Positions 13,275 to 35,140 of a stretch of DNA of 35,140 bases are shown in pieces (the first letter of the stretch is position 1; each line of letters starts with the position of its first letter). The stretch spans positions 1-35,140 of the IMG/VR virus record IMGVR_UViG_3300044673_000115; one strand, given 5' to 3'. The stretch comes from a virus. A program made the translations under genes and the position numbers. The notes under the pieces were generated by a model. It was not told where the DNA came from and searched no databases. It saw only the letters and a program-made list of their open reading frames with translations.

Positions 13275-13978
13275 GCAATCCTCCCTTGCCTCAAGAGCTT
13301 GGGCTCAATCCTTGAGCGCCATACTTGGCGGAAAACCGTGCGGAGTTTTTTTGGGTCCGTGACCTCGTGACCCTTGTTGCGTATCGCCCTCGCATAGTCG
13401 CCTTGGACGTCCTGGGTCAACTCGAGGAGCGTGTACGCCACGGAATTTGATATTTTGCCCTCGTAGAATAGGTCACGGAGGCCGGGATGCAAGTTGGCAA
13501 GGCGGAGGTGATGACTCAAACGGCGGTCCGTCAATTCCAACTTGAGCTTGACGAAATCCACGGAGGCGCCCACGCTCCAAAGCTCCGTAAGCGCCGCCGA
13601 GTAGTCAAGAGGGTGCAAGTGGTTCCGCTCGGCCAAGTTGTCCACAATCGACGCCTGGTACGCCTCAACCTCCGTGGCGTATTCCCTAAAGATTGCCCGG
13701 ACATGGCCGAGCTTGGAGCTACGAGCCGCACGGAGACGGCGTTGGCCTATGACTACGGTGTAGGCGTATCCTCCGCTCTCCGCTTTTTCCTCCGGCGTGT
13801 TGCGCCGAACCACAATGGGAAACGTCAAGCCGCGCCGAGAGAGCGCAATGGCAAGGTCCGTGTCCGTGGTCCGGCGGATGCGAGGCTCCCAACTCCGCCG
13901 GCGGTCCTGGATGAGCGCCGTTGGCAAGAGCCAAACTTGCGCCGCGCCCGGTCTTGATTGTGTCCACGCCATTGTCAT
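13271..13978 (-). CDS. ParB-like (ParB/Spo0J/KorB) protein
   Basis: 235 residues. The N-terminal part has the ParB pattern: VWLLPTALIQDRRRSWEPRI, LAIALSRRGLTFPIVVRR, YTVVIGQRRLRAARSSKLGH (the GxRR-type box) and VDNLAERNHLHPLDYSAAL. A helix-turn-helix segment (VKLKLELTDRRLSHHLRLAN) and LRDLFYEGKISNSVAYTLLE follow. In plasmids the family binds centromere-like sites as a CTP switch; in phages ParB-like proteins also occur as regulators or nucleases. No ParA ATPase is visible, so active partition is unlikely. It shares a transcription unit with the PAPS-reductase-like gene. ATGA overlaps occur at both ends. Confidence 0.87.
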   Translation of the reverse strand: MTMAWTQSRPGAAQVWLLPTALIQDRRRSWEPRIRRTTDTDLAIALSRRGLTFPIVVRRNTPEEKAESGGYAYTVVIGQRRLRAARSSKLGHVRAIFREYATEVEAYQASIVDNLAERNHLHPLDYSAALTELWSVGASVDFVKLKLELTDRRLSHHLRLANLHPGLRDLFYEGKISNSVAYTLLELTQDVQGDYARAIRNKGHEVTDPKKLRTVFRQVWRSRIEPKLLRQGRIA

Positions 13979-18846: not shown

Positions 18847-19542
18847 TTAGTGCGGAATTCCTACGAGCCGGGCGCCGGCGAAATAGAACGGAGAGCGGTT
18901 GCCCTCTTTGGGGTCCGTCAACGGCATGATGACGCCGGCGCCGAGCCAACCGATATGAGCGTAGGCACCAACTCCAATGTTGGTGCCATATCCTCCCAAA
19001 ACGTCAAGAGAAAAAAAGGTATTCCAGGAGGCAAGCGGCAACTCATCCCGGACCTTTTCCTTGACGGGGATTGCGAGGCCAAACGGCCGGAGCGCCAAGC
19101 TCCGTATATAAAAGCGGTTGACAGGCGGACCGTATAGCTCAGCGTCAAGGGTCACTTGGGTCCGCGTCTCCGCGCTGAGCGTGTCCTCCCCTTGGTGGAG
19201 TGTCGCCGCCACGGTCACGGTGGACGTATCGGTGCCTCTCCAATGATAGACCGGCGGCTCCCCCGCCTCCGGCGAAATGTAGACCGTATCCGGCGCCGGC
19301 CACGGCCGGCCGGCGAGGCGCTCCAAGACGCGGATGCGCTCAAGCGCCTGGGAATAGGTCACGGAGTCCACGGTGCCCTCCACGGGCTTTGAAATGACGG
19401 GCCCTACGTCAATGGTTGCGGGGACGGTCGTGGCCTCCTCATGCACGGTGGAGCGTCCCCAAAAGAATCCCCCGGCAATCAAGGCGGCCATGACAAGGAT
19501 GACCACGAGGCCAAGGGCGGCATATCCTTTGAGTGAATCCAT
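18847..19542 (-). CDS. Membrane-anchored protein of the lysis region (spanin-like position)
   Basis: 231 residues, MDSLKGYAALGLVVILVMAA, with one N-terminal membrane span (about 9-30) and FFWGRSTVHEEA after it. A helical middle (SVTYSQALERIRVLERLAGR) is followed by beta-rich segments (YHWRGTDTSTVTVAATLHQG, LDAELYGPPVNRFYIRSLAL). The C-terminal third is Gly/aromatic-rich with alternating strands (FFSLDVLGGYGTNIGVGAYA, HIGWLGAGVIMPL), like an outer-membrane-facing domain. The outline resembles DUF6808-type phage proteins. As the last gene after the holin-like and DUF5675 genes it may bridge the envelope like a spanin; this is inferred. Confidence 0.55.
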   Translation of the reverse strand: MDSLKGYAALGLVVILVMAALIAGGFFWGRSTVHEEATTVPATIDVGPVISKPVEGTVDSVTYSQALERIRVLERLAGRPWPAPDTVYISPEAGEPPVYHWRGTDTSTVTVAATLHQGEDTLSAETRTQVTLDAELYGPPVNRFYIRSLALRPFGLAIPVKEKVRDELPLASWNTFFSLDVLGGYGTNIGVGAYAHIGWLGAGVIMPLTDPKEGNRSPFYFAGARLVGIPH

Positions 19543-20104: not shown

Positions 20105-20548
20105 TCAGCCGCCGCTTGGCGGCTTAGCGGCGCGGGTCACGAAAGACCCGGTGCCGTTGAGTGCCGAGTTGCCAACGTAGGCCGTCATAAAAACCGTCCA
20201 AACGGCAAAGCCTGAGACCGGCCACATATCCGTTGGCGAGGTTTTCCAAAGCAACATGAGCGCCCCGATATTGGCCACAATGGCCGAGACCGTTTGGCCC
20301 ATGTTGGTGAGGAGATAGGCGCCGAGCCCCTCCGCAATGGAGCCTCTCGTGAATCCCTTGGCCCAATGGCCGAGCATCCCGAGGGCGAGGACCCCAAAGT
20401 AGATGACGGGAGGGAAAAACGGGAGGACCGGCTCCGTGGCCGGCGGCGTCTCCGGTTGCGCCATGGCAAACGCCACGGCAACCAAGAGCATGAGGAGGAG
20501 GGCCACGAGGTAGCGGCCGCGCTCCGTGAGGTTACGTACCTGAATCAT
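20105..20548 (-). CDS. Holin-like multi-span membrane protein
   Basis: 147 residues from ATG 20548, with AGAGGT six bases upstream; a longer frame to 20632 overlaps the upstream gene. A signal-like first span, YLVALLLMLLVAVAFAMAQ (about 13-31), is followed by an acidic Pro-rich loop and further hydrophobic stretches at FFPPVIYFGVLALGMLGHW, VSAIVANIGALMLLW and GFAVWTVFMTAYVG. Three or four spans, small size and a location just before DUF5675 fit a holin. The N-terminal span may be a cleavable signal or an anchor. No family match is recognised. Confidence 0.55.
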   Translation of the reverse strand: MIQVRNLTERGRYLVALLLMLLVAVAFAMAQPETPPATEPVLPFFPPVIYFGVLALGMLGHWAKGFTRGSIAEGLGAYLLTNMGQTVSAIVANIGALMLLWKTSPTDMWPVSGFAVWTVFMTAYVGNSALNGTGSFVTRAAKPPSGG

Positions 20549-20582
20549 AGAGACCTCTTTGGTTGGTGAGTTGTTCGGTTGA

Positions 20583-20891
20583 TTATATTCTCGGAGAGAC
20601 CAAAAAGCTACTTGTATCCGAGAGGTAGACAATGCCGCCCAACGTGACGGCCGCTTGGAAATAGTAGACGCCGGGGACGTCCAACGTATCCGCGTCCGTG
20701 ATGTATTCGAGCTCTCCGTCCGTTCCGTCCCCCCTGAGCGCCGGCGTCAAGGTGAGCCTTTTGCCATTGGGCTTGCGGAGGTAAAACGTGAGCGCCGTGG
20801 CGGCGGATATGTTCACAATGTCGCGGCTCTCATTGCGGACCGTTGTGTAAAGTGGCAAGATTGAGCCGGCGCGGACCGTGTTGGCGCTCAT
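20583..20891 (-). CDS. Ig-like BppU-N-type tail or adhesin domain protein
   Basis: 102 residues from ATG 20891, chosen because GGAGG precedes it eight bases upstream. The whole protein is one beta-sandwich: GSILPLYTTVRNESRDIVNI, ALTFYLRKPNGKRLTLTPAL, DGTDGELEYITDADTLDVPG and VYYFQAAVTLGGIVYLSDTS. The L-R-KPNG ... DGTDGE-x-x-Y ... L-x-VPG-x-YYFQ pattern is typical of small phage receptor-binding or baseplate Ig-like domains (BppU N-terminal type). It probably forms an accessory of the tail tip or capsid surface. It overlaps the preceding small ORF by four bases. Confidence 0.65.
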   Translation of the reverse strand: MSANTVRAGSILPLYTTVRNESRDIVNISAATALTFYLRKPNGKRLTLTPALRGDGTDGELEYITDADTLDVPGVYYFQAAVTLGGIVYLSDTSSFLVSPRI

Positions 20892-21043
20892 TTGCTTTTC
20901 CTCCAAGGGAATGTCTTGGCAAGAGTTATGAATGATATAAGCCGGACGGTCGTGGAGTAGACGTTGGCCCATATCCCCAAGCTATTGGAGACAGTTGTGG
21001 AGCATACGTAGGCGCTCCCAATGCTATGTTGGCCGGGCATCAT
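20888..21043 (-). CDS. Short coupled ORF
   Basis: 51 residues starting at the ATG pair at 21043/21040 (MMPGQHSIGSAYVCSTTVSN) and ending KTFPWRKSK. Its start overlaps the stop of the 21040-21396 gene (ATGA) and its own stop overlaps the start of the 20583-20891 gene (ATGA). That double overlap, otherwise seen only between real genes here, is the main support. It has a modest hydrophobic stretch (VRLISFITLA) and a basic end. It may be a tiny lysis or membrane peptide; the ribosome site of the following gene lies inside it. Confidence 0.45.
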   Translation of the reverse strand: MMPGQHSIGSAYVCSTTVSNSLGIWANVYSTTVRLISFITLAKTFPWRKSK

Positions 21044-21396
21044 TTGGAGTGCGCCCTCCGCATTTTGTCCTCGAAATCCGAGAAGCGCTCCCGCGTCACT
21101 TGCTCCTCCACGGCGTCCCGGACCATGTTCTTGGTCTCCTTGGTATTCCTGGCTATCTCTTGCAAGACCTCCGTTTGCGCGGTCATGAGTTCGGAGAGCT
21201 TGTTGAGCGTGGCGCGGTCAACCATGACAACCTCCGTGGACTGAGCGCCGGGCTCCTTGGCGCTCCCCGTCATCCGTGTCACGGTTGTCAAGAGGTCCCC
21301 CAATGAGTTGAGGGAGATAGGCAAGAGGAGCATGGCAAGCGCCGCAATCTTGAGATGCGGAGGGAGGTTGCTGAGGTGGTCCGAGAGCTTGGGCAT
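21040..21396 (-). CDS. Membrane protein with cytoplasmic-type coiled coil
   Basis: 118 residues from ATG 21396 (MPKLSDHLSNLPPHLKIAAL); the longer start at 21456 overlaps the GH18 gene. One hydrophobic span (IAALAMLLLPISLNSLGDLL, about 17-36) is followed by a helical, charged region with heptad-like spacing (LNKLSELMTAQTEVLQEIAR, TKETKNMVRDAVEEQVTRER). One span plus a coiled coil fits an inner-membrane spanin or a holin accessory. It opens the lysis-type segment right after the tail genes. Confidence 0.55.
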   Translation of the reverse strand: MPKLSDHLSNLPPHLKIAALAMLLLPISLNSLGDLLTTVTRMTGSAKEPGAQSTEVVMVDRATLNKLSELMTAQTEVLQEIARNTKETKNMVRDAVEEQVTRERFSDFEDKMRRAHSK

Positions 21397-21436: not shown

Positions 21437-24400
21437 TTACCGTACAACGGCGCCATAGTATTCCACGTAATCCCATACCGTAACCTTGCTATAATGGTCC
21501 GCCGAATAGGTCAGCGTCCCGAAAACCGGCTCCGCTCCGGCGGAGATAGCGGGGAGGTTGGTGGTGAGGGTCTTAGTGCCGGCCAACGTGGCCACGTTGC
21601 CGGAGATTGTGTAGACGTTAAACGTCACGGAGGTCCTCGAGACTGTAAACTCCGCCCGGTACCAAGTGCTTGCCGCCTGGATACAAATACCTTGGCGAGT
21701 CTTGTTGGTTCCGTCACAAGTCACGGCGTAGATTGAATCCGCGCCGGTTGCGGCCTTGTTCCCCCATTCAAGCATAATTTGGACAACGTTGGTGTCCGGC
21801 GTGGCCACGCCACGGTTGGAGCCATTGACGTCACCTTGAGAAATGCCGGCAATACTCACGAGAGAGTCCAACGTGGACGGCGTGAGCATCCCAACCCGGA
21901 ACGTCCAACCAACCGGCAAGGCGCTCCCAAAATCTCGGGTAGGACTTGCGCCTTGGCCCGTGTTGGAGGAGATGCGATAGGTGAGCCCCTTGGCCTTGGT
22001 TCGGTCCGCCATGTTGTTGGAGTCTGAGAGGACGTAGAGGTAGCCAAAGCGGTTGGTATCCGCAAGGCCAAAGTCCGGGTTGCCCCATTGCCCATAAGTC
22101 CCGGCCGCTCCGCTCCCCACGGCTTGCACGTTCCAACTCATGCCGCCCAAGAGACCGGCATCCGTGGAGGTGGTCCCGTTGATTGCGCCGATATGATGTA
22201 TGAGGTCATCATGGAAACCGGACCACGTTGACAATGACGGCGGCCCCCCTGAGTTCATGCCAACCCTTGCCGAGTCTACCACTTGCCCCAATGATTTCCC
22301 GCCAAGGGTCGTGGCGGCTCCGGTGGTCCCGAGCGTGTAGGTATCTTGGCCATTGACGGCCGTTGTTTTTGTCACGGTGACGTTGGCGCCGGCGGCAATG
22401 ATTTCTTTCATGGGCGCTTGGTCAATGCTCAGCAAGCCGTTGGTGACGCTCAAGGGAGCGTTGACTCCCGTGACAAGCGCCGGCGGTCCGCCCAGGCTCC
22501 CAATGGCAACGGCATTGGAGTCATAGCCGCGCTTGTAGAACGTTGAGCCCACGAGCCCAAAGTTGTACGTCCCAGGCGTGAACGGTGCAACCAATTGGTC
22601 CGGTGAGCTAAGCTCCCGGAGCGTGAGTTGGGACCGGAGCGCCGTGCTCGTGCGGAAATCCGGCGCCGCCGCCGCCATGGCGCGGAATTCATTGCGAGTG
22701 CCCTTGGCTCTTATGGTCGTATCCTGGGCAATTGCCTTGGTCGTGAATTTACGGAAAGCCGTGTACCCGCTCGAGCCGTTGGCATTTTCCGCCGAGACCC
22801 TCCAATAGTAGACCGTGCTATTGGAGAGATTTGAGTATAGATATACCGTGTCCAAGATTGCCGGCGTGTAGGTCCATTGGGCTCCGGTCGTGGAGTCCCC
22901 AATGCGGACTTGCAAGGTGTAGCTTGCGGCCGAGTCTACCTTGGACCACTTGAGGGAATCCGTGGTATTGGCCCCGGTAGCGTTGGCCGTGGGCTTGAGC
23001 AACGTTGGGGGGAGCGGCGTGCTCAGCGTCAAGTTGGCGGTCGTGAAACTTGAGGCGCTTGAGATGCTTGCGTGGCCGGTCGTGCTCGTGCTCGTGACCC
23101 GCCAATAGCGGACTTGCCCGTAGCCCAAGGGGTTGGCATTGTCAATGAGGCTCGTGTCCGTTGTCGCTCCAAAGACCGTGACGGTGCCGGCCGAGAAAGC
23201 GGAGGAGCTTGAGACCTCGAGCGTATAGCTCACGGCGTTGGTTGCCTTGCGCCATTTGTAAGTCCGGCTCAGGCGGTCAATGCCGGTGCCGCTTGGAGAG
23301 AGGAGCACGGCCGTCCCTGGAATGACGGGCACAATGCCGCCGCCCACGGCCGCCTTGACGGCATCCGAGAGGGGTTGCTTTTGCCCGGCCGGCGCCGAGT
23401 TTACCCAACCGTCATAGAGGTTGTAGATGAAAACGCCGCCAATGGCCGAGTCCGCCGCCCATTTCACCTTGAGCGGGATGCTTTGCGGGTCATCATAGGA
23501 AATATAGTATTGCGAGACGGCGGAGCCGCCGAGGCGCGGATAGGTCCCTTGATACTGCAAAAAAGGCACGCCGGCCTCTTGGACCCAATGGTAGCCCTCA
23601 GGATGCGCCGCAAGTTGCGTCAAGACCTCCGCATAGGTGCCATAGGTGAAAATATTGCCCGTCCTGAGGTCCCCCGGCTTTTTCGGGAGGTCCGTGCCGC
23701 CGCCGGCAACCCAGGAATAGAACGGTATACCAAGACTCATCTTGGCGGCCGGGAATCCGTCATGAATCCAACCGTATTGTCCCCCTCCCCCGCCGGTCTT
23801 GACGTTCCCGGTTGGGTTGTGATTCTCGAGGCTCCAATAGTTGAGCGTTGCCGGGTATTCATTGGGAGCGTCATGCAAGGGAGAGTTGAGCCACGCCGTT
23901 GACCCGCTCATAAAGTCGTATGTCATCATTTGAGCGTTGTCAATGTAGGAGTTGAGCAAGTCATAGCTCCCGTAGGGACGGTAGGCGCTTGCATCATTCC
24001 AAGCGCCCATTGCGATTGTGAGCCGGGCATTGGGGATGACGGCGTTGAGCCGGCGGCGGAGGATACGCAAGCCTCTCATATAGTTGGGCCCGTTCGTGGG
24101 GTGCTCGAGGTCCACGTTGGCGCCGTCAATGTTCCAACGGGCGCAAAACGCCGCCACGGAGCCGGCCCAAGCCTCTGTCTTAGCTGAGTCCGCAAAAAGG
24201 TAGTTCATGCGCCCGGCGTCCGCGCCATAGATGCCGCCCACGCATAGGGTAAATTTATTTCCGGCGGCGTGCACGGCGTCAATGAGTTGTTTGAGCGGCG
24301 GATTGCTCGGCGTGGCCGGGTAGGCAAGGCTCCCGCAATTCGAGGTCCCCCCTCCCCAAACCATGTAGAGAGAGTCATTGGGACGGGTCACGAGACCAAA

Positions 24401-25582
24401 ATAGGGCGCCGTGCTCGTGTCCACGGCCGCCGCAAAGTAGATGACGTCATTGATATAGGAGAAATCCACGAGGCTTGGCGCCATTTGGCAAATGCCCCAT
24501 ACCGGGTAATAGGCCGAAACATAGAGCCCGGTGACGGCCGTGGCGTTGGTGACGGCAATTTGGACGGTATCCGTATACGATACATTGAGCGTGTCATCTT
24601 GGAGCTTGGCATAGATATACTTATTGCCGGCCGTCAAGAATTTAATGGCACGAGCAAACGCCGCCCCGTAGGTCTTGACGCCGCCGGCCTGGATGCTTGT
24701 AGAGTCCAAGAGCATGAAATTGGAGCGGCTCCCCGTGGAGTCAAGGTAGAGCCACGCCTTGCGAAAGCCAAAGGAGTCCGTTGCGCTCAAGTTGAAAGTG
24801 AACGTTTTGCCGGTGTCGGACCCGGTTGGCGAGGAGGAGACCGCCCCCTTGGGTCCGTAGAGGTCGCGGACGGACGGCGGCGGAGCCTGAGAGCCCGGCC
24901 GGCTTATAGTGAGGTCATCGAAAGCAAAGGAGGTGGATTGCGTCCGTGCGCCAATCCATACGTAGGCGCCGCCGGCAAGGCTCGAGGCGTAGCGGGAGTC
25001 ACGCCAACCCATTTTTTTGACGCCGTTGTAGCGTCCCTCAATGGAATCCCCCATTTTCCAAAGCTCAACCGTGTCATTGACGGCCCAAGGCGTGAATTGA
25101 GCGCCGGCCGCCGCGTTGGGAAACTCAAACGGCGTGGCCGTCCCCGTGTAGCGCCCCACGCAAAAGTCAATCCAATTGACGTTCCAAGAGGTTGCCGTGA
25201 CGGCGCAAAAGACTCCCGTGGCGGAGGTATCCTTGGAATTGGCAAGGATTATGAGACCGTCCCAGGAGGTAGGGTACGCGGTTGGCTTTCGGGCAATGCG
25301 ATACTTGACCCTCAGCGTATCCGCGCTCCAAAGCTTATTCCAGGCATTGAGCACGAGCTTGCCGGTGCCGGATACGTTGACGGGTTGCGCCACGCCGTTG
25401 CCGCCAATGAGCGTCACCTTAAACTCTCCGGGGTTGCCGGTGACGGCCACGAAACTATCCGGCGGAGACGTCAACGTGGTCACGCCTTGCCCCTCCGTGC
25501 CGGAGAACGTTTTGGGCGCCTGGGCCTCGAGGCCGGCGGCAAAGATGAGGATGAGGATTGCAACGGCAAAAAGCTTTTTCAT
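21437..25582 (-). CDS. Large secreted-type tail protein with GH18 (chitinase-family) domain and FN3 repeats
   Basis: 1381 residues; GGAGG precedes the ATG. Residues 1-22 are a textbook signal peptide (MKKLFAVAILILIFAAGLEA, QA). Then a jelly-roll-like domain (about 25-228), an Ig-like domain (235-348), and a GH18 barrel (352-748): GLYVSAYYPVWG, KFTLCVGG (SxGG-like), DGANVDLE (Asp486, Asp491, catalytic Glu493; the usual DxxDxDxE has Asn489 in its second Asp), QMMTYDFMSG and GGVFIYNLYDGW. Two FN3-like domains follow (about 757-965, each with YYWRVS- or RYWRVTS-type strands). The C-terminus is fibre-like. GH18 enzymes cleave beta-1,4-GlcNAc linkages in chitin, glycans or peptidoglycan. It follows tail genes, so it probably acts at the host surface. 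Confidence 0.85.
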   Translation of the reverse strand: MKKLFAVAILILIFAAGLEAQAPKTFSGTEGQGVTTLTSPPDSFVAVTGNPGEFKVTLIGGNGVAQPVNVSGTGKLVLNAWNKLWSADTLRVKYRIARKPTAYPTSWDGLIILANSKDTSATGVFCAVTATSWNVNWIDFCVGRYTGTATPFEFPNAAAGAQFTPWAVNDTVELWKMGDSIEGRYNGVKKMGWRDSRYASSLAGGAYVWIGARTQSTSFAFDDLTISRPGSQAPPPSVRDLYGPKGAVSSSPTGSDTGKTFTFNLSATDSFGFRKAWLYLDSTGSRSNFMLLDSTSIQAGGVKTYGAAFARAIKFLTAGNKYIYAKLQDDTLNVSYTDTVQIAVTNATAVTGLYVSAYYPVWGICQMAPSLVDFSYINDVIYFAAAVDTSTAPYFGLVTRPNDSLYMVWGGGTSNCGSLAYPATPSNPPLKQLIDAVHAAGNKFTLCVGGIYGADAGRMNYLFADSAKTEAWAGSVAAFCARWNIDGANVDLEHPTNGPNYMRGLRILRRRLNAVIPNARLTIAMGAWNDASAYRPYGSYDLLNSYIDNAQMMTYDFMSGSTAWLNSPLHDAPNEYPATLNYWSLENHNPTGNVKTGGGGGQYGWIHDGFPAAKMSLGIPFYSWVAGGGTDLPKKPGDLRTGNIFTYGTYAEVLTQLAAHPEGYHWVQEAGVPFLQYQGTYPRLGGSAVSQYYISYDDPQSIPLKVKWAADSAIGGVFIYNLYDGWVNSAPAGQKQPLSDAVKAAVGGGIVPVIPGTAVLLSPSGTGIDRLSRTYKWRKATNAVSYTLEVSSSSAFSAGTVTVFGATTDTSLIDNANPLGYGQVRYWRVTSTSTTGHASISSASSFTTANLTLSTPLPPTLLKPTANATGANTTDSLKWSKVDSAASYTLQVRIGDSTTGAQWTYTPAILDTVYLYSNLSNSTVYYWRVSAENANGSSGYTAFRKFTTKAIAQDTTIRAKGTRNEFRAMAAAAPDFRTSTALRSQLTLRELSSPDQLVAPFTPGTYNFGLVGSTFYKRGYDSNAVAIGSLGGPPALVTGVNAPLSVTNGLLSIDQAPMKEIIAAGANVTVTKTTAVNGQDTYTLGTTGAATTLGGKSLGQVVDSARVGMNSGGPPSLSTWSGFHDDLIHHIGAINGTTSTDAGLLGGMSWNVQAVGSGAAGTYGQWGNPDFGLADTNRFGYLYVLSDSNNMADRTKAKGLTYRISSNTGQGASPTRDFGSALPVGWTFRVGMLTPSTLDSLVSIAGISQGDVNGSNRGVATPDTNVVQIMLEWGNKAATGADSIYAVTCDGTNKTRQGICIQAASTWYRAEFTVSRTSVTFNVYTISGNVATLAGTKTLTTNLPAISAGAEPVFGTLTYSADHYSKVTVWDYVEYYGAVVR

Positions 25583-25583
25583 G

Positions 25584-26921
25584 CTACGGCCTCCATATTA
25601 GTGGAATGACAACCAAGAGACTATCTTGCTCTCCGTCCGCATTGGACCGGATTTTGAGCTTGCCGGCTTGGACTGAGGAGACGTATGGCGTACCAATGAC
25701 GGTCTTGCTCGTTTGATAAACGGGAGCGCCGAAAATCCACGAGGGCGCAATGCGATTGTCCACAATGTCCAAGGTGTCCCCTCTCAGCATCCCGGAGAAA
25801 TAAAGCTCAAGGCTCTTGGAGATTGTGGAATAGTCCGAGGAGTCCGCAAAAGGCGCCTTGAGCGTTGGGGATAGGTCTTGCCGGAGGAGCGTGCCGTCCT
25901 CAACCTTGGAGGAGTTGACGGCCGCCGTTGCAAGCTTGGGTTGCGTCACGCCGAGGTCCGCCAACTGAGTTGTCCCCACGGAGGAGCTTGCCATATCCGC
26001 GCCTTGTAAGGTGCCGTCCAATACGGCGTTGCTTGTCACTTTCCCGGTGCCAATCGTAGGGTTGGGGTAGTTCCCGGCAAGGTCCCCGCCGGCCGGCCCG
26101 TATGGCGTGGCGGCGGAGTCCGCGTTGCGTGCATAAGGCGCCTTGAATGAGGAGGCCGCTTTGCTCGAGGTGAGCGCCCCGTCCGGTATCTTCGAGCCTG
26201 GGACGGAGTTGGTTGCAAGCTTGTTGGAGTCCACGCCGGCCGTGGCAACGTCAAGGGTCGTGGTCGCTCCCGTTGGGTTGGTGACGGTGATGCTCCCGCC
26301 GGACTGTATGGCGGAAATGGACCCGCCGCCTCCGCCGCCGGCCGTGAGCGTCACGGTGTCCCGGCCGTTGGTAGAGATAGAGGCGCCGCCGGCGCCCACG
26401 AGCGTCACGTTGTCCGTCAAACCGTTGAGCCTACGGAGGAGGTTGCCGGCCTTGACGTCCTTGCTCGTGAGGGAGGAGTCCTTGACGGTCGCGGAGTCCG
26501 CCACGTTGGCGGCGAGAGTTGGGTTGGGGAACGTCCCGGAGAGGACTCCGCCGGCCGCGCCGGTTGGGCTTGCGCTCGTGACGGAGATAGTTATGGCCCC
26601 AGGAGCGTGGGAGAGCGTGACGTTGGTGCCGGCCGTGAGGGCCTTATATTCCCACGCCGTCCCGGCCGCGTTGACGCCTACCACGTAATTGGCGGAGCCG
26701 AGGCTCGAGAGGCCGCCAATGGACCAAGCGCCGGTTGAGATACTCCACGAGAGCGGCAACGTGCAAAGCGGAGAGCGTGCCGCCCAACCGTAGCGGGTAG
26801 GCGTGCCGCCGAGGTTGGAGTAGACGGAGTATTGGTTGACCTTGGGCCCCGGTTGAGCGTGGCCGGCGGCCGTTGCCACAAGAAGCAAGGCGGCCAAGAG
26901 TGCGCGGGTTGCGGCGTTCAT
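25584..26921 (-). CDS. Fibre-like protein with signal peptide and GNYPNPTI-type repeats
   Basis: 445 residues from ATG 26921 (AAGGA upstream). The N-terminus MNAATRALLAALLLVATAAG ends HAQP, a signal peptide with a likely cleavage after AHAQ-type residues. Low-complexity beta-rich repeats follow: GGVLSGTFPNPTLAAN (about 140) and GGDLAGNYPNPTIGTG (about 295), a motif common in Bacteroidota surface and phage fibre proteins. Other repeats are LTSKDVKAGNLLRR, SSVGTTQLADLGVTQPKLA and SSKVEDGTLLRQDL. It probably forms a trimeric fibre stalk with the GH18 protein encoded two bases downstream. The secretion signal is unusual for a virion protein. Confidence 0.7.
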   Translation of the reverse strand: MNAATRALLAALLLVATAAGHAQPGPKVNQYSVYSNLGGTPTRYGWAARSPLCTLPLSWSISTGAWSIGGLSSLGSANYVVGVNAAGTAWEYKALTAGTNVTLSHAPGAITISVTSASPTGAAGGVLSGTFPNPTLAANVADSATVKDSSLTSKDVKAGNLLRRLNGLTDNVTLVGAGGASISTNGRDTVTLTAGGGGGGSISAIQSGGSITVTNPTGATTTLDVATAGVDSNKLATNSVPGSKIPDGALTSSKAASSFKAPYARNADSAATPYGPAGGDLAGNYPNPTIGTGKVTSNAVLDGTLQGADMASSSVGTTQLADLGVTQPKLATAAVNSSKVEDGTLLRQDLSPTLKAPFADSSDYSTISKSLELYFSGMLRGDTLDIVDNRIAPSWIFGAPVYQTSKTVIGTPYVSSVQAGKLKIRSNADGEQDSLLVVIPLIWRP

Positions 26922-26941
26922 GTTCTTTGGTCCTTTTTGAT

Positions 26942-27559
26942 TTATGCCCATTTGTAAACGTGGAGGACAATGCGGCGGTCTACGCTCTCCTCCGTGTTGC
27001 TACGGACGTCCACGTAGCCGTTGCCAACCTCAGAAATAAAGAGGGCCCCGAGCGGCGGCGAGTAATTGGCCGAGGGGTCCGCTTGGTCATTGAGACCCCA
27101 GGCCGGGAGGACGCGGCCGGTTGCGCTGAGCCCCGCAATGGAGACTCTCGTATAGGACCCTTGCCCTCCGGGGTCAACTCCCACGAGGACGGCCTCTACG
27201 TATGAGCCCTCCACAATCTTCTTGAGCCTCGTGAGTTGGTCCGCCGTGAGGACTTGCGCCATGCGATACTCTTTCCCGGCGAGGTTTTTCACGGTTGCGG
27301 TCGTGCCCTCCTGGGCCCGTTGGACGGTGAGCACGTTGCCGGAAATCCCCGTGACCCGGACCAATTCCTTGTTGGGGTCATCCACGGGGTCCGGGTAGTC
27401 CGTGACGTTCCAAAAAAGGAGCGTGAAAGCTCCCTCACTTGCCACGGAGGGGAGCTTGGCAACCTCGCCCGGCACGAGAGAGATTGCGGTTGCGAGGTGG
27501 TCATACCCGCCGGAGACGGCAACCCGGCCAAAGTTGCGGAATGGGTCTACAAGGCTCAT
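26942..27559 (-). CDS. Tail tip accessory protein
   Basis: 205 residues, MSLVDPFRNFGRVAVSGGYD. The segment KELVRVTGISGNVLTVQRAQ, then EGTTATVKNLAGKEYRMAQV, is a small beta module widespread in phage minor tail and fibre-adaptor proteins (sequence of the V-x-G-x-x-GN-x-LTV-x-RAQEGT type). A second part (GALFISEVGNGYVDVRSNTE) is all-beta. It lies between the 264-residue tail protein gene and the fibre gene, so an adaptor between tip and fibre is the likely role. Confidence 0.7.
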   Translation of the reverse strand: MSLVDPFRNFGRVAVSGGYDHLATAISLVPGEVAKLPSVASEGAFTLLFWNVTDYPDPVDDPNKELVRVTGISGNVLTVQRAQEGTTATVKNLAGKEYRMAQVLTADQLTRLKKIVEGSYVEAVLVGVDPGGQGSYTRVSIAGLSATGRVLPAWGLNDQADPSANYSPPLGALFISEVGNGYVDVRSNTEESVDRRIVLHVYKWA

Positions 27560-27561
27560 GT

Positions 27562-28356
27562 CTATCCTATCTCAAAAAACTTGAAATTGAGGGTTGCTAC
27601 TTGGTTGAGGTGGTAGCCTATCACCTCTATGGGGTCCTCCGTATTCTCAAAATAGACGTAATAGACGGCCGTATCCGTGTCCGTAAGGAATAGCGGCCGG
27701 AGGTCCCCACGGACAACCGTGCCGAAAAAGAATTGGAGGCCGGTCTTGCTAAGCTCGGAGAGAGCGTTGCCGCCCTTGAAACCAAACGAGAGACGGCGGC
27801 GGCCGTCCGTGAGTTGAGACTTGCGGAGCGTCCCGTCCAATGCCTCCGTCTCAATGGTCTTGAATCTCTTGCCAACGGACTTGTAGGGCAATGAGTACGG
27901 CGTGCCCAGGTCCGTATCTCGCCCAATCATGGCAAGGCCCACGTATGGGATAGTCCCGTTGAGCGTTTGGAATAGGAGACGAAAGTATTGGTTGGACGTA
28001 TCGGCAAAGCTGAAAATCCACGGGTCCGGCGGATAGCCGCTTGCATTACTGTCAAAGAGCGTGGTTGCCACGGCAAAGTCCGCCGTTGTGGAGCGTTGAA
28101 AGAGGACGCGGCCGCCGTTGTCCACAACGTCAATGAGGTTGTGCCTATGCAAAGCCAACATATTTTTTTGCGCCATGCCAAACCACGCCGGCACGGCAAA
28201 GCTTAGGTAGGCCCCGTCCGTGGCGGTTGCCGGTTTCCATAGCTTGCTTGGGTTGTAGTCAAGGAGGTTGGAGAGAGGATAGAGCGGGTCACTACCCACG
28301 GACGCGGTTGGCGTCATGGCGTTGAGGTCTGCGGAAAATAGCTTGACGTTGCCCAT
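27562..28356 (-). CDS. Minor tail protein with discoidin-like beta-sandwich
   Basis: 264 residues, MGNVKLFSADLNAMTPTASV. SNLLDYNPSKLWKPATATDG, AYLSFAVPAWFGMAQKNMLA and LHRHNLIDVVDNGGRVLFQR follow the pattern of galactose-binding-like (F5/8 type C-like) tail domains that begin 'sNLLd ... W.s' and place a ligand face. The C-terminal half is beta-rich (LSFGFKGGNALSELSKTG, AVYYVYFENTEDPIEVIG). Its ATG overlaps the stop of the 1538-residue gene (TAATG), and GGAGG lies within that gene's last codons. Possibly a receptor- or glycan-binding tip component. Confidence 0.65.
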   Translation of the reverse strand: MGNVKLFSADLNAMTPTASVGSDPLYPLSNLLDYNPSKLWKPATATDGAYLSFAVPAWFGMAQKNMLALHRHNLIDVVDNGGRVLFQRSTTADFAVATTLFDSNASGYPPDPWIFSFADTSNQYFRLLFQTLNGTIPYVGLAMIGRDTDLGTPYSLPYKSVGKRFKTIETEALDGTLRKSQLTDGRRRLSFGFKGGNALSELSKTGLQFFFGTVVRGDLRPLFLTDTDTAVYYVYFENTEDPIEVIGYHLNQVATLNFKFFEIG

Positions 28357-31300
28357 TATATCAAAACCTCCACTTTCATGTTGCCGGTGGATGAGTAGGA
28401 TACGCCATAAATGGGCCCGGAGAGTGTCATGGGAATTTGGGTGCCCACAATGTTGGCGCTCAGCTTGTCAAAAAGCTCATAGTGAAAGTAGGGTATCAAT
28501 CCGAGGTCCACGGCATAGAGGTCATGCCCTACCTTGAAAAATTGCCATGCCTGGTATGCAAGGTCTTGCAAGGCGCTCGTGGGAATGTAGGGAGAGTCAA
28601 TAGTGACAACCCGCTTGGGAGCAAAGACCGGCACATTGAAAGCCACGCCGTTGAAAGTCACGGTTGCCGAGCCGTTGGAGACTGAGACCAACTCGGCCTT
28701 GGGTGAATACTCACGGACCTTGCGGACGTTCCGCGCCTCCGATATGGTCACGCTCAGCGTGGCGCCGCTTGTCACGGGAGTCCCGTTGCTATCCGCCCGG
28801 CGGAATACGTAGACTTGCTTGTTGACGGAGACCTTGCCAATGAGTTGCCACGGAGAGAGGAGCTTGCGGATTGCCGGCGTGACCATGAGCCCCTCGAAAT
28901 CCGCCATTGGCACCATGGGGACCACTTGGACGCCGTATTGGTATAGCTTGACTCCCTCGTAGTTGACGTAGCTCGTGGCGTTGTTTTGGTCCAAGAGGTA
29001 GAGCCGGGAGTTGGCGTAGACCATTTGGTTGAGTCTCGTGAGGATGCCAACATGGACGGCCGTGGCCACATTGGCAATGGCGGAGTATACCGTCAAGCCC
29101 GTCACGAGGTCCATTGTGAGGTAAATTGTGGCGTCCGTTGGAGAATAGTACGCCGTCCCGGCAACCCCCGTGGCGTCATTTGTGTCCAAGACCGTTGTGG
29201 CGCCCGTGGATGCGTCCGTATGCGATTGCAAAAGCAAGTCCCCGGTCCCCGCCTGGGCGGCGAAATAGTAGACCACGCCCTCCGCTTGGTTGTAGGCTTG
29301 CACGCGATAGTCGTATATACCGGCGGTTTTTTCCCCGCCGTCCGTCCATACGCCGGAGGCGTTTACCGTATATTCCCGGTAGGCGTGGAGCCCGGCGTTG
29401 TTGTAGACCCTAAAGCGCACGGCGCCGCTCGTGGTCCCAGGCGTCCGCAAATACATGAAATAATTGCGGATGCCGTTGCCGGTCGTGTAGCCCAGGAGCG
29501 TCCCGGTCGTGATTTGAGTTGCGGAGAGCGCCGTGCCGTCCGCAACGGAGCCGTCTACAAACTTGAAACGGCCCTTGTCCGTGGCGTCACTTTCCTCAGT
29601 ATAGAGGACGCCATACTTGTAGGCGCCGGAGGTGTATTGATAGTCATACAGTTGGACGGAGTAATGCGTGGGCCCAATGGCCAAGCCGGCGCTGAGGTTG
29701 AGGTTGGAGAGCGTCAACCGATAGAGGTTGCCGCTCCCGTATATCCAAAGATGCCCGTTGCGAGAGTTATACATGAGCTTTTCCACGCTCCCGGTTGGGA
29801 TTGTGGCGAGGAGCTTATACTCTCCGGTTGAGAATTCTCTCCGGTATACCTTGGCGTCAACGGAAATAAAGAGGTCCGTGCCGTCCGTCTCAATGGCATC
29901 TTTGGCGCCAATCACAACTCCGTCATTGCCGGGCGGCGTGTCAAGATACGAGACCCGCTTGGCTCCGTTATAAGTTGAGAATTCGAGGGTATCATAGACT
30001 TGAGACGTTGCCCCGAGTTGCCGGTAGAGCTTGGTGAGGAGGGAGCGCACGCTCGAGTCCTTATACCAACGGCGAGGGAGCTTGGCGCCGTAGTTGATTA
30101 TTAGGAGGTCATCCACGTAGGCGGAGGCGCCGGAGGGCATGGTGGAGAGGTTGCAATAGAGCGTAATGCGCTCCGTGTCGCCCGTGGAGTTGTCCACGTT
30201 GCCAATAGTGTTGTTGCCGTTGCTCAGCGTTTTCCAGGCGCCGGCGTCAAGCTTGGCTCTCCTCGTGCCTCCGTTGTATTCATACGTGAGGGTATGGACG
30301 CCCGGCTTGAGCACGTAGCCGCTTATATTGGCGTCCGTCACGTAGGCGTCCAAAATGGTTGGTAGGATGAGCCCGTCATTGCCGGCGCCGTCCGCGTTCA
30401 CTTTGACGGGCTTGCAACTCACCAACTCGGCCGGGATGCGGTTGCCGAGGTCCTCCAAGGCGTAGGCCATGAGCGCAACCTTGTCCGTTAGCTCCTCAGC
30501 GTCCGCGCCTGGGCGGTCAACAAAGCCCGAGAAAAGAGGCACCTTGTCCGTGGCGCCTACGAGTTCCGCCTCTACTTTCATCTCAATGAGGTCCTCCCCC
30601 TTGGCGGCCGTGAGCTTGGTGAGCCACTTGTCTTGGAGGTAGGTCTCAATTTGTTGGCGCTCATCCATGGAGAGGACCCGGTTGTATACGATGACCTCAA
30701 ATAAGTCCCCGGAGAAAGGATACGCGCCCGTATCGGAGGCGCCAACGGTGAGGTTGGTTGCCGTGTCGTTTATAACGTTCACGCCGCCGGCGCCCACGGA
30801 TTGCTCCGCCCCGTTTTGAAAGAATCTCAAGCGGCCGCCGTCAAACGTGACGGCGAGAGAATAGACGGCGCCGGAGACCGGCACGGCGCCGGCCGGTGCG
30901 CCCGTTGGCGTTCCGGCCGTTTGGCGCTCGAAATAGCGGGTTGAGGCCGTTTGATAGTAGAGGTGCCAACCCTCAACCGGCGCCGCGATTTTCTCCTTGG
31001 CCAAGATGCGCCGATATGTCGTGTCCACGGTGTTGAGCTTGGCCATGACCATGATAGTGAAAGGCGCCGTGCCCAGGAATTCGAGGACGTCCCCCCCATA
31101 GAGGTAGTCATCCGTCCCGTCAAAGCGGACTCCGGGGAGCCCGTTTTGCACGTTGGTCTTGTAAAGAGGCCGCATTGCGGCATTGGCTTGCGTGACGTTG
31201 TAGCCGGAGGGGGAGCTATCCGTCCACGTTGTCACGGCGGCGCCGTCCGCAAGCCCGGTTATTGCATCCGCCTTGAGCCACAAGGAGAGGCCGGGCAAGG

Positions 31301-32972
31301 CGTTTGGCTCCATGCTCCGTGCAACGGAAATGGCATATTTGTCCTTGAGGTATTTTTCAACCCCTTGGCGCTCAGCTTCGGAGAGCGTCCGCGTGTAGAT
31401 TATGACCTCCGCAATATCTCCGTCCCAATGTTGATTCGCATTGAAACGCCGGCCGAGTACCTTTTGGCCTTGGCCGGAGTAGGCGTTGGCCGCCGTCAGC
31501 ATCGGAGGGACCCAAGAGCCATTTTTGTAGAAAGCATTGTTGGCCGGGCTTGCGCCGTTCCGTGCATATTCGTAGATAAACCACTTTTGGCAAGTATCCG
31601 CTTGGGCTTGCGCCGTATAGACGCCGGGTATGATTGCCTCCAAAAGCGCCGGGCTTGCATTTATCTCGAATTGCACGGCGTTGGCCGCGTTGTCTTGGCC
31701 CAGGAGCGTGGCGCGGACGGTATCCGAATTGGAGCGGCATACAAAGAAAACCGTGCAATTGTCCCCTATGCTCAGCCCTCCGCCAATGAGGAGCGCCGTA
31801 TTGTTGGCCGGCGCAAAACGGACGGCCGGCAATCCATTGATTGCATCGGTGACGTAGGTTGGCCGATTGCTCCCCGTGTTGGAGCCGTTGAATCCGTTGC
31901 CGCTCGAGTCTTGCCACAAGCTCACGAGGTCCCCGTTGGCGAGTCCGGCAATGGCATCCGCCTTGAGCCACAACCCAAGGCCGCTCAACATATCCGGCGT
32001 CAAGCCCTTGGTGAGAGATAGCGCATATTTGTCCGCGTAGAAATACTCCAAGCCTACCCGCTCGGCGTCCGTTAGGCTCCGGTTATACATGAGGATTGCG
32101 GCATGGTCCCCTTGCAACGGCGAGGGTCCAACCTCCGTGGCCCCTATACGGCAAGAGCTTGCGTTGTCAATCATGGAGTAGGTTGACGCAAGACCCGCGC
32201 CTTGCTCGGCGCCGTTCAAAAAGAGCCGCATTGTGGAGCCGTCATAGGTGACGGTGAGGAGGTACCAACGTCCGGGGATGAGCGGAGGACCGGCCGGGGA
32301 GACGGAGCCGTTGTTGTTGAGGTAGCGGATAAAATAGGTCCCGGCGTAGGCGCAATAGAGGAGCCAACCGTCATAGGGCGGCGCCTCGTTTCTTTTCTGG
32401 ATGAGCCGGTTGTTGGTTGGGTTGGCGCTCGGGTTGACCAAGACCATGAACGTGAACGGCGCCCGGCCCTCGAGGCCGAGCTTGTCCCCAAGGGTGAGGT
32501 TGTCATTGGAGTCAAAACGGAGGACCGGCTTGCCGTTGACAATGCCAACCTTGTAGGTTGGCTTGTTGGCCGCAGTGGATTGCGTGGCGTGGTTGCCGTT
32601 CCCCGAGAGGTCCAACCATTCGGAGACGGCTCCGCCGTCCGCAACGTTTTGCACGTTGTCCGCCTCGAGCCATAGCGTCAAGCCGGGTATCCGGTTGGGT
32701 GCAATAGTGTTGGTGTTGAGGTACGTGGCCTCCATGTATTGAATCCCACGAGGAGCAAAGGCGTGCTTGTCCACGCTCAGCGTCCCCGGCTCATACTCCA
32801 CTTTGCTTGAGATTTCCGGCATGGCGGCCACGCGGTCCGTAATCTCTTGCCAAGCGCCGTATCCAATCGCGGCGCCCATGCCAACAATCTTGCGGAGATA
32901 GTAGCGTATGCGGACGTCCTTGAGCGCCCCAAGGGCAAGGCGGAGGTATGTTGTGCTCGGCGTTTGTTTCAT
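28356..32972 (-). CDS. Tail hub-like tip protein carrying three LamG-like domains
   Basis: 1538 residues. The start (MKQTPSTTYLRLALGALKDV) and MEATYLNTNTIAPN (80-93), then KVPLFSGFVDRPGADAEELT near 820 and DKVALMAYALEDLGNRIPAE, and the end (YHYELFDKLSANIVG, GPIYGVSYSSTGNMKVEVLI) have the pattern of siphovirus tail hub proteins. Between them are three concanavalin/LamG-type repeats: about 96-318 (IPGLTLWLEADNVQN, WLDLSGNGNHAT), 330-550 (LSGLGLWLKADAIAG, WQDSSGNGFNGS) and 559-784 (LPGLSLWLKADAITG, WTDSSPSGYNVT), each ending near a D-x-ER-x-x-(L/V)E-x-x-(Y/F) helix. The repeats sit inside the hub's first domain and would project as sugar-binding lobes. It follows the tape measure gene (TAATG overlap). 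Confidence 0.78.
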   Translation of the reverse strand: MKQTPSTTYLRLALGALKDVRIRYYLRKIVGMGAAIGYGAWQEITDRVAAMPEISSKVEYEPGTLSVDKHAFAPRGIQYMEATYLNTNTIAPNRIPGLTLWLEADNVQNVADGGAVSEWLDLSGNGNHATQSTAANKPTYKVGIVNGKPVLRFDSNDNLTLGDKLGLEGRAPFTFMVLVNPSANPTNNRLIQKRNEAPPYDGWLLYCAYAGTYFIRYLNNNGSVSPAGPPLIPGRWYLLTVTYDGSTMRLFLNGAEQGAGLASTYSMIDNASSCRIGATEVGPSPLQGDHAAILMYNRSLTDAERVGLEYFYADKYALSLTKGLTPDMLSGLGLWLKADAIAGLANGDLVSLWQDSSGNGFNGSNTGSNRPTYVTDAINGLPAVRFAPANNTALLIGGGLSIGDNCTVFFVCRSNSDTVRATLLGQDNAANAVQFEINASPALLEAIIPGVYTAQAQADTCQKWFIYEYARNGASPANNAFYKNGSWVPPMLTAANAYSGQGQKVLGRRFNANQHWDGDIAEVIIYTRTLSEAERQGVEKYLKDKYAISVARSMEPNALPGLSLWLKADAITGLADGAAVTTWTDSSPSGYNVTQANAAMRPLYKTNVQNGLPGVRFDGTDDYLYGGDVLEFLGTAPFTIMVMAKLNTVDTTYRRILAKEKIAAPVEGWHLYYQTASTRYFERQTAGTPTGAPAGAVPVSGAVYSLAVTFDGGRLRFFQNGAEQSVGAGGVNVINDTATNLTVGASDTGAYPFSGDLFEVIVYNRVLSMDERQQIETYLQDKWLTKLTAAKGEDLIEMKVEAELVGATDKVPLFSGFVDRPGADAEELTDKVALMAYALEDLGNRIPAELVSCKPVKVNADGAGNDGLILPTILDAYVTDANISGYVLKPGVHTLTYEYNGGTRRAKLDAGAWKTLSNGNNTIGNVDNSTGDTERITLYCNLSTMPSGASAYVDDLLIINYGAKLPRRWYKDSSVRSLLTKLYRQLGATSQVYDTLEFSTYNGAKRVSYLDTPPGNDGVVIGAKDAIETDGTDLFISVDAKVYRREFSTGEYKLLATIPTGSVEKLMYNSRNGHLWIYGSGNLYRLTLSNLNLSAGLAIGPTHYSVQLYDYQYTSGAYKYGVLYTEESDATDKGRFKFVDGSVADGTALSATQITTGTLLGYTTGNGIRNYFMYLRTPGTTSGAVRFRVYNNAGLHAYREYTVNASGVWTDGGEKTAGIYDYRVQAYNQAEGVVYYFAAQAGTGDLLLQSHTDASTGATTVLDTNDATGVAGTAYYSPTDATIYLTMDLVTGLTVYSAIANVATAVHVGILTRLNQMVYANSRLYLLDQNNATSYVNYEGVKLYQYGVQVVPMVPMADFEGLMVTPAIRKLLSPWQLIGKVSVNKQVYVFRRADSNGTPVTSGATLSVTISEARNVRKVREYSPKAELVSVSNGSATVTFNGVAFNVPVFAPKRVVTIDSPYIPTSALQDLAYQAWQFFKVGHDLYAVDLGLIPYFHYELFDKLSANIVGTQIPMTLSGPIYGVSYSSTGNMKVEVLI

Positions 32973-34861
32973 TACGAGAAAGCCATGCGGCTCCGGTTGT
33001 CCCTCAAGAGTTCCGTTGCGGATTGCCCGGTTTCCCGGAGCTTGGCCTTGACGGCCTCAATGACCCAATCCGGCGAGGAGACCGGACCGTAAAAGTTGAA
33101 CGTGAGGCCGCCGCCCGAGCCCGAGAGGGCTTGTTGCAAGTCCGCCTCTTGGCGCTCCGTTCGTACTGTCTCCCCTCCCCTCACAAGTATTGGGAATTCC
33201 TTGGACGGCGGTGCATCATAGTACGTGGCTCCTCCGCCGCCTGGGACCGTGCCGCCCTCGTGGAATTCGGAGAGGATAGCTCTTGCGGTCTCGAGCACGG
33301 CGAAAGCGGCCGTGATTTTCGGGAGGTCTTGCAAGAGAGAGAGACCAAAGGAGAGCGTTGACTTGGCAATGGCGGCCGCCTCGTAGGCCAATATCATGGA
33401 CTCCACGGCGTCAATGATGCCGCTCGTGATTGCTTGGAGCCACTTTTTGAGCGCTCCCTCCGAGCCTGAAAAAGCCGCTTGCAACCCTATCTTGAGCGCC
33501 GAGGTATACGATTGCATTGCCGAGGTTGCAAAGTCGTATTGTATTTGCATATCCTCACGTATGGCCTCCAATGCCTCCTCCATGCCTGAGGGTATATCCT
33601 CCTTGACTCCCTTGACAACTATACGGGAATACATGAGCGCTTTCATGCCGGCGGAGTCCCAACCCTTTTGGAGCTTGTCTAAAATTGGGAGTTGCGTGGA
33701 AAGTCCGCTATTCATAAGCGCCATTGTTGCCTCTTGGTCCTCTCGGGCGGCGTTGAGGTCCTTTTGGGCGGCGGCCGTCTCGGCAAGCTTGGCCTGGTAC
33801 GCGGCGGAGCCAAAGGTGAGGTTGTTGAGTTCGGACGCAAGCGCCTTGTATCGCTCCTCAAGCTCCTTGATTGACCCGGCTTGCGCCGTAGCCTCCTCCG
33901 CTCCCTCCCGGCCAAACTTGTTGACCACGGCGCCGGCGGCGGCGGCCTCCTTGGAAACGCCTTGGAACGCCTCGAGGGCGGCCGTGCCGTAGGTCTCGGA
34001 GAGTTCCATGCCTTTTTCAACGGCGTCTTGCAATACCGTGCTCGTGGTCACGCCGAGAGCGTTCATACCTTTTTCAATCCAGGCAAGCGGCGAGAGGATA
34101 GAGGCAAAGAGCGTGGCAAAGGCGCCCTTGAGCGCATTGATTGAAACGAGCAAGCCACGCCCCACAATCTCCGTCAAGACAGAAAGCGCCGGCGTGAGGG
34201 ATGAGATGACCTCCTTGGCCGTGTCCCCCAGGAGTTCCTTGAGGTTTCCAAACTCATTTCGGATTATGGCCATTTGCCCGGCGGCGGTCTTGCCCTCGTT
34301 TGTAGCAAAGTCCCCAAACTTGGTATTTATCTCCGTCAAGACAATGGAGAGCCGCTCCCCCTCATCCTTGGCGCCCTTGGTGGAGATGCCATACCGGCCG
34401 AGTGCATCCGAGCCGGCCACGGTCTTGCCAATCAGCATGGCGGCGCTCTCGGCGTCCATTTGGAGGCCGGTTGCGAGGTCCAACGTTGCCTTGGTGAGAG
34501 GGTTGAGCGCCGTGCCGGTTATCCCGGTCATGGCCACGAGCGTTGCTTGCAAGCCGGCAATGAGGTCATCGTCATAGACCGTAATCTTGGCAAGCTCCTT
34601 GGCATAGTTGGCCATTGATGCCCTCGTGGCGTCTCCCTCTACTCCGGCATTGCGTAGCGCCTGGGCAAGCCGGGCTTGGAGTTTCTCGGCCTCATTGGAC
34701 TCCGCAATGAAATCGGAAATTGCCGCCACGGAGAAAGCGCCAACCACGGCGGTCTTGAGAGTGTTGAGGCTCGTGGAGGCGTTGCCCAGGAATCCGTTGA
34801 GGGTCTTGGTTGCCTCATCTCGGAGGGACAAAATATACTCTATGTCGCGGTTGCCGGTCAT
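32972..34861 (-). CDS. Tail tape measure protein
   Basis: 629 residues: MTGNRDIEYILSLRDEATKT, then NAEKLQ-type helical N-terminus, LAKITVYDDDLIAGLQATLV, SAAMLIGKTVAGSDALGRYG, and a hydrophobic middle (ALSVLTEIVGRGLLVSINAL, AFATLFASILSPLAWIEKGM). Next come an Ala/Glu-rich helical segment (about 290-480), the membrane-like segments AITSGIIDAVESMILAYEAA and LSFGLSLLQDLPKITAAFA, and a Gly-rich tail (GGTVPGGGGATYYDAPPSKE, LVRGGETVRTERQ). Length sets tail length; at about 0.15 nm per residue the tail would be near 95 nm. Position between minor tail Z and the hub-like gene is standard. Confidence 0.88.
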   Translation of the reverse strand: MTGNRDIEYILSLRDEATKTLNGFLGNASTSLNTLKTAVVGAFSVAAISDFIAESNEAEKLQARLAQALRNAGVEGDATRASMANYAKELAKITVYDDDLIAGLQATLVAMTGITGTALNPLTKATLDLATGLQMDAESAAMLIGKTVAGSDALGRYGISTKGAKDEGERLSIVLTEINTKFGDFATNEGKTAAGQMAIIRNEFGNLKELLGDTAKEVISSLTPALSVLTEIVGRGLLVSINALKGAFATLFASILSPLAWIEKGMNALGVTTSTVLQDAVEKGMELSETYGTAALEAFQGVSKEAAAAGAVVNKFGREGAEEATAQAGSIKELEERYKALASELNNLTFGSAAYQAKLAETAAAQKDLNAAREDQEATMALMNSGLSTQLPILDKLQKGWDSAGMKALMYSRIVVKGVKEDIPSGMEEALEAIREDMQIQYDFATSAMQSYTSALKIGLQAAFSGSEGALKKWLQAITSGIIDAVESMILAYEAAAIAKSTLSFGLSLLQDLPKITAAFAVLETARAILSEFHEGGTVPGGGGATYYDAPPSKEFPILVRGGETVRTERQEADLQQALSGSGGGLTFNFYGPVSSPDWVIEAVKAKLRETGQSATELLRDNRSRMAFS

Positions 34862-35140
34862 TAGTCAAAAAGCTCCTTTGCGGCCTTGTTGAGTGCGCGG
34901 CTCCGTACCATGTCCATGGCGCGGTCAATCTCAATGGGGAAACGCTCAGCAACAAACGCCTCAAGCCTGGGCTTCATCCGCAAGCCGCCAAACATGAGCG
35001 GAATACTCGGACCGTATAGTTGCCGGATAGGGTAGCGCTTGCCGCCCTTGAGATAGTTGACCCGGACGTAGATGCCGGCCTTGCCCGTATTGCGGCCGTA
35101 TGTTGGCCGGGCAATGAACGTACCAACGGCGGCTCACCGC
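34861..35140 (-). CDS. Minor tail protein Z family, C-terminal part
   Basis: Remainder of the junction-spanning gene. Reading leftward from 35006 it encodes ..GPSIPLMFGGLRMKPRLE and then a C-terminal helix rich in Arg, Lys and Glu, ending KAAKELFD. Its TAA overlaps the tape-measure ATG (TAATG at 34859-34863), so the two genes are translationally coupled. Bases above 35006 repeat the start of the window, and 35133-35140 look artefactual because they introduce an in-frame TGA. Confidence 0.88.
35007..35132. repeat. Terminal direct repeat, copy 2
   Basis: Exact copy of bases 1-126. The last eight bases (35133-35140, ctcaccgc) depart from the matching 127-134 (tgagccgc). The four bases that differ are the loop of the palindrome at 121-136 read in the opposite orientation. 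Confidence 0.95.

Follow-up and report, generated by a model that had tools for sequence, protein, structure and literature searches.

Signal Peptides on a GH18 Protein and a Fibre-Like Protein in a Phage Tail Module Suggest Export of Fibres before Virion Joining

The window analysed here is the whole 35,140-base IMG/VR virus record IMGVR_UViG_3300044673_000115, and the two genes of interest lie side by side at the end of its tail module, on the minus strand, like the other recognised genes of the window. The first (25584 to 26921) encodes a fibre-like protein of 445 amino acids and the second (21437 to 25582) a protein of 1381 amino acids with a glycoside hydrolase family 18 (GH18) domain; both begin with a predicted signal peptide. 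The tail fibres of double-stranded DNA phages are taught as cytoplasmic products. According to our analysis, some tailed phages may export their fibres from the cytoplasm first and attach them to the virion afterwards.

The open reading frame (ORF) of the first gene covers 455 amino acids, and its ATG at 26921, preceded by an AAGGA ribosome-binding site (26931 to 26935), gives the 445-amino-acid protein. Its description as fibre-like is based on weak matches to PHROG tail-fibre families and on GGxLxGxYPNPT fibre repeats, such as GGVLSGTFPNPT (26517 to 26552) and GGDLAGNYPNPT (26055 to 26090); the tail fibres of other phages are matched at the level of these repeats only. In addition, a stretch of 47 residues is 60% identical to a signal-less tail protein of 1100 amino acids from another phage contig. 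Just upstream of this gene lies a stand-alone protein of 205 amino acids of the tail-fibre N-terminal type (26942 to 27559; phrog_8469 tail fibre, 1.1e-7), an arrangement which looks like a fibre gene split into an anchor and a body.

The second gene, with a GGAGG ribosome-binding site at 25590 to 25594, encodes, after the signal peptide, an N-terminal domain without a family match, the GH18 domain, two Ig/Fn3-like domains with weak matches and a fibre-like C-terminal part. The catalytic domain (23414 to 24298, residues 429 to 723) matches PF00704 with E = 3.5e-22 and 79.9 bits, the curated cut-off being 29.6. In its motif DGANVDLE (24104 to 24127, residues 486 to 493), Asn489 replaces the second Asp and Glu493 is kept, which confirms the family assignment and both residues as given in a preliminary description of this DNA. 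Thus, PF00704 match, catalytic Glu and downstream MxYD motif (QMMTYDFM) are shared with GH18 chitinases and N-acetylglucosaminidases, from which the protein differs in the Asn at the second Asp, the fused fibre-like parts and the phage setting. The full three-Asp DxxDxDxE, which is absent here, is a trait of canonical chitinases and is not required for the fold family. Asn occupied the second-Asp position in none of 16 sampled Pseudomonadota GH18 motifs; it is found there in some active GH18 peptidoglycan hydrolases and in di-N-acetylchitobiase. Judged from these motifs, enzymatic activity of the GH18 domain is plausible. Searches of viral contigs gave no relatives of the GH18 protein, its C-terminal part, the 205-amino-acid protein or the tail tip protein encoded further upstream; likewise, the GH18 domain had none among genome contigs, and the GH18 protein none among phages. 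Among plasmids, the domain gave only matches of 24 to 26% identity, on six plasmids. Thirteen GH18-like DNA-pattern matches in viral contigs, all without MxYD, were judged to be due to chance.

N-termini were scored with a home-made signal score, distinct from SignalP, trained on 24 known signal peptides. The fibre-like protein scored 10.7 and the GH18 protein 9.3, compared with 10.0 to 18.4 for the 24 known signal peptides and with a 99th percentile of 5.7 for internal segments of the phage's own proteins; for positions -5 to -1 alone, the scores were 13.9 and 13.3, compared with 9.0 to 15.7 for known signals. Both N-termini show a short positive n-region, a hydrophobic core and a c-region of small residues, with a small residue at -1, as is typical of substrates of Sec and signal peptidase I. 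The head, portal, tape-measure and tip proteins encoded in the window all scored far lower, and the other late proteins with N-terminal hydrophobic segments (18847 to 19542 and 20105 to 20632) are both of membrane or lysis type. Score, architecture and operon position together bear out the preliminary statement that both proteins start with Sec-type signals directly after tail genes. That statement had been made conditional on the absence of internal starts bypassing the signal: the initial 160 codons of the two genes contain no in-frame ATG of this kind, but GTG codons 34 and 56 of the GH18 gene, which have purine-rich upstream bases, leave bypass as a weak possibility.

In both proteins, a plausible cleavage site is followed by Gln. 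In particular, with the slash marking the proposed cut, the fibre-like protein begins with MNAATRALLAALLLVATAAGHA/QPGP (GHA/Q; signal peptide at 26856 to 26921) and the GH18 protein with MKKLFAVAILILIFAAGLEA/QAPK (LEA/Q; signal peptide at 25523 to 25582). These cuts are proposed from the Bacteroidetes Q-rule, yet the scorer placed its own cuts two to four residues off, namely, four residues earlier in the fibre-like protein and two residues later, before Pro, in the GH18 protein. The average Q-value is 71% in Bacteroidetes, but high values occur in some other lineages too, e.g., 77% in Ignavibacterium album (PMC5837995), and the Gln signals therefore do not fix the host of the window phage.

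Both genes sit in a tightly packed late operon, with intergenic gaps of 2, 20 and 1 bp between the genes for the 264-, 205-, 445- and 1381-amino-acid proteins. Their codon usage correlates with that of the core structural genes at 0.89 (445 amino acids) and 0.97 (1381 amino acids), and promoter and terminator matches were not above those in shuffled sequence. It follows that a recently added moron is unlikely, and an origin of the two genes as morons or auxiliary metabolic genes was rejected in view of the packed operon and the core-like codon usage. The same two features speak against a chitinase with an auxiliary or lysogenic-conversion role, by which the host would be fed or protected, as does the lack of an integrase or repressor among the genes scanned; even though a prophage-encoded chitinase supporting host growth is on record (PMC11788074), we consider such a role very improbable here.

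Cellulophaga phages, which were sequenced with tandem mass spectrometry (MS/MS) of their virions, allow a comparison with proteins of known location, the virion assignments being taken from the deposited records. In phi10:1, gp091 to gp094 are structural by experimental MS/MS and all carry Q-type signals (SA/QT, FG/QN, SA/QT and NA/QT), and signals are absent from the eight other virion proteins of this phage that were checked (head, connector and tail). Likewise, gp101 to gp103 of phi19:1 are virion proteins with Q-type signals, followed by gp104 with a weaker signal that lacks Gln, and in phi18:3 the MS/MS record places the signal-bearing gp085 to gp087 in the virion. In these three phages the last three or four genes of the tail module, lyases included, bear signals, and signals of the same kind are present on homologous genes of phi19:3, phi46:3, phi13:2, Ingeline and Nekkels. 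Several homologues are annotated as pectate lyases, and, since lyases degrade glycans, they can be regarded as functional parallels of the GH18 protein. Phages phi10:1, phi19:1 and phi18:3 (Assiduviridae and Pachyviridae) resemble the window in having signal-bearing genes in a row where the tail module ends, Gln behind a plausible cleavage site and glycan-degrading domains; they differ in having pectate-lyase instead of GH18 bodies and cultured Bacteroidota hosts. The preliminary description had offered several readings, i.e., action of the exported proteins on the cell envelope or on neighbours, attachment to virions from outside after lysis and a secreted glycan-degrading system. Because proteins of the same type and position are MS/MS virion proteins in three cultured Cellulophaga phages, attachment from outside is the best supported of these, ahead of a dedicated secreted system.

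Among these phages, Gln occupies +1 in 11 of 12 distinct signals, which points to real processing by a signal peptidase of the Q-rule type. That 10 of 11 should have it by chance has a probability of about 3e-11, even when each signal is given three possible sites, relatedness being ignored. Furthermore, the signal-bearing N-termini are kept while the bodies behind them are exchanged. The first 42 residues of phi10:1 gp094 and phi13:2 gp087 are 93% identical and their bodies unrelated, the first 132 residues of phi10:1 gp093 and Nekkels gp54 are 95% identical and the remainder differs, and phi46:3 gp081 carries the gp093 lyase body (93% identical) behind a gp094-type signal. The same lyase body is found, at 44 to 49% identity over about 657 residues, in signal-less tail proteins of the podophages phi17:2 and phi14:2. 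In this respect, the N-terminus with the signal resembles the anchor of a fibre in Cellulophaga phages. Such conservation would also fit uncleaved hydrophobic anchors for virion docking, and the MS/MS records, which do not show cleavage, agree with N-termini that are not processed at all, be they anchors of this kind or relics of host genes. Nevertheless, unrelated signals share the n-region, core and c-region architecture and the Gln at the signal-peptidase site (11/12, and about 12/19 in the survey described below), for which an anchor has no need, and we regard unprocessed N-termini as quite improbable.

The main rival to the interpretation as virion fibres is that both proteins are free secreted enzymes, exported but never part of the virion, which, in the periplasm or outside the cell, would degrade peptidoglycan or exopolysaccharide for lysis and spread or coat the cell against superinfection. 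The signal peptides themselves and the adjoining holin-like gene fit this explanation, and a phage-secreted enzyme has a precedent in Kayvirus Tgl (PMC7150955). Moreover, the gene following gp094 in phi10:1, gp095 (47388 to 48878 of L172), encodes a pectate lyase with a signal, yet it is not recorded as virion associated, and an SGNH/GDSL hydrolase with a signal peptide is encoded directly behind a tail fibre gene in another contig (6782 to 7450 of L002, the tail protein having 1100 amino acids). On the other hand, the fibre-type repeats of the 445-amino-acid protein and the record of the same protein class in the virions of three phages speak against free enzymes, and an enzyme secreted by itself would not require an accompanying fibre. 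Overall, we consider free secretion unlikely. As a separate observation, the gene of phi19:1 in the same place as gp095, gp104, is marked as virion, unlike gp095.

To place the two proteins among phages at large, IMG/VR was searched with the fibre motif GDLxG[TNK][YF]PNPT, and the N-termini of 80 loci were scored. By a uniform rule, 6 of 68 fibre-motif ORFs were signal positive, compared with 5 of 299 other ORFs of at least 200 amino acids (Fisher p = 0.007), and several of these five adjoin fibre genes. Most of the surveyed fibre proteins are signal-less, and a minority of them carry strong signals. The rarity of signals in tail clusters presumed by the preliminary description holds for phages in general, given the 5 of 299 other large ORFs, but the window is not unique. 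Among the signal-positive ORFs, Gln was exactly at +1 in 11 of 19, and in one more if the cut is moved by two residues; the score took no account of residues after the cut. The contigs with signal-bearing fibre-like ORFs are real phages, as they carry genes for a capsid and a head-tail adaptor (L065), a terminase (L060 and L093), a baseplate (L027), or a portal and an endolysin adjoining an S74 fibre of 1283 amino acids (L086). An unusual place for fibres was noticed in the contig of L093, where, at 11438 to 17707 of L165, a small-terminase-like gene is followed by genes for three proteins in a row whose N-termini look like signals, one of them fibre-like and 938 amino acids long, and then by the large terminase.

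Considering these data together, we find it somewhat probable that both proteins are virion proteins of the tail fibre or depolymerase type that undergo Sec export and cleavage and become attached to the virion only after leaving the cytoplasm. For the window phage, we infer the following course. Both proteins would be translated late from the tail operon and exported across the inner membrane by the host Sec pathway, and a cut by signal peptidase I would expose the N-terminal Gln, as expected in a diderm Q-rule host of Bacteroidota or a similar lineage. They would then fold outside the cytoplasm, in the periplasm, and dock to the tails once holin and spanin, at lysis, let virions mix with the periplasmic contents. 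The GH18 protein could in this way become a virion-borne, possibly also a free, enzyme cleaving an N-acetylglucosamine-containing surface glycan, with the 445-amino-acid protein as its companion fibre. Tentatively, and with slightly less than even confidence, it is possible to extend the hypothesis to some tailed phages of diderm Q-rule hosts, whose receptor-binding and glycan-degrading fibres would be Sec exported, N-terminally cleaved and cyclised, and docked during lysis, the signal-bearing N-terminus acting as an exchangeable cassette for lyase, GH18 or esterase bodies.

Several points weigh against export followed by attachment to the virion. No sequence similarity was detected between the window proteins and the Cellulophaga proteins, and the former are therefore placed in this class by architecture and not by descent. 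Detection by MS/MS is no proof of cleavage, and abundant exported proteins may contaminate virion preparations. In two cultured Bacteroidota phages, Flavobacterium phage 11b and Bacteroides phage B40-8, the tail proteins checked carry no signals of this type, so that the distribution is patchy even within this group; likewise, in phi14:2, from the same host species and the same analysis, seven tail-region MS proteins were checked, and a clear signal is missing from all of them. The window encodes another possible receptor-binding protein, of 1538 amino acids and with LamG domains, and AlphaFold2 models built from single sequences without alignments had a predicted local distance difference test (pLDDT) score of 31 to 32, which made them useless, and were not used. 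Finally, the terminase gave no host assignment, as its viral matches reached at most 52% identity and the single genome match was a Micavibrio metagenome-assembled genome at 36%.

In the literature, signal peptides on the lyases of Ingeline and Nekkels are mentioned in one sentence (PMC8776804). As in the window, these flavophages have large polysaccharide-degrading proteins with signals in the tail cluster; different from the present analysis, the portions of that paper considered here draw no link from the signals to virion assembly. Q-rule signal peptides are also shared by Porphyromonas gingivalis phage proteins of unknown function, which differ in that a role in altering the outer membrane of the host has been proposed for them (PMC10367356). 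In Bdellovibrio, the mosaic adhesive trimer (MAT) has a conserved beta-rich domain of about 130 amino acids after the signal peptide and forms a trimeric fibre, but, different from the window proteins, MAT fibres are bacterial and act in predation, not on virions (PMC10769870). In the open-access literature, we found no report joining signals, virion proteomics and the swapping of N-terminal modules; the original Cellulophaga proteomics paper lies outside this scope and may discuss it. Should export of the fibres come first, assembly would have to be completed in the periplasm or after lysis; host-range determinants would then be made in another way than has been taught, and the fibres of one cell could dress other virions. 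The question is directly testable in cultured Cellulophaga phages.

As for the remainder of the window, its ends (1 to 134 and 35007 to 35140) repeat each other over about 134 bases with 97% identity, and the genome is therefore probably complete and circular or circularly permuted, though the collection classes the record as linear. The recognised genes, all on the minus strand, run from terminase, portal, capsid/protease fusion and tail terminator into a tail module that continues across the joint. After the joint come a probable tape-measure protein (32972 to 34861, 629 amino acids), named from position and sequence character and without a significant family match, the 1538-amino-acid tail tip protein (28356 to 32972; phrog_10356 virion structural), a tail-module protein of 264 amino acids assigned by position (27562 to 28356; phrog_8610, E = 0.002), and then the 205-, 445- and 1381-amino-acid proteins. 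The three LamG domains (PF13385, 9.9e-40) inserted in the tip protein make it a second candidate receptor-binding protein. Directly downstream of the GH18 gene, the lysis-type region opens with the holin-like membrane protein (21040 to 21396; phrog_7198 holin, E = 0.009, a weak match); further on, the membrane-anchored late protein at 18847 to 19542, without a significant family match, is spanin-like by position and topology only, with its N-terminal hydrophobic segment. A ParB-like protein is encoded at 13271 to 13978, and neither ParA nor an integrase was recognised in this 35-kb phage. The capsid protein and the head-maturation protease are fused in one gene of 699 amino acids (3621 to 5720; phrog_617, 3.2e-95).

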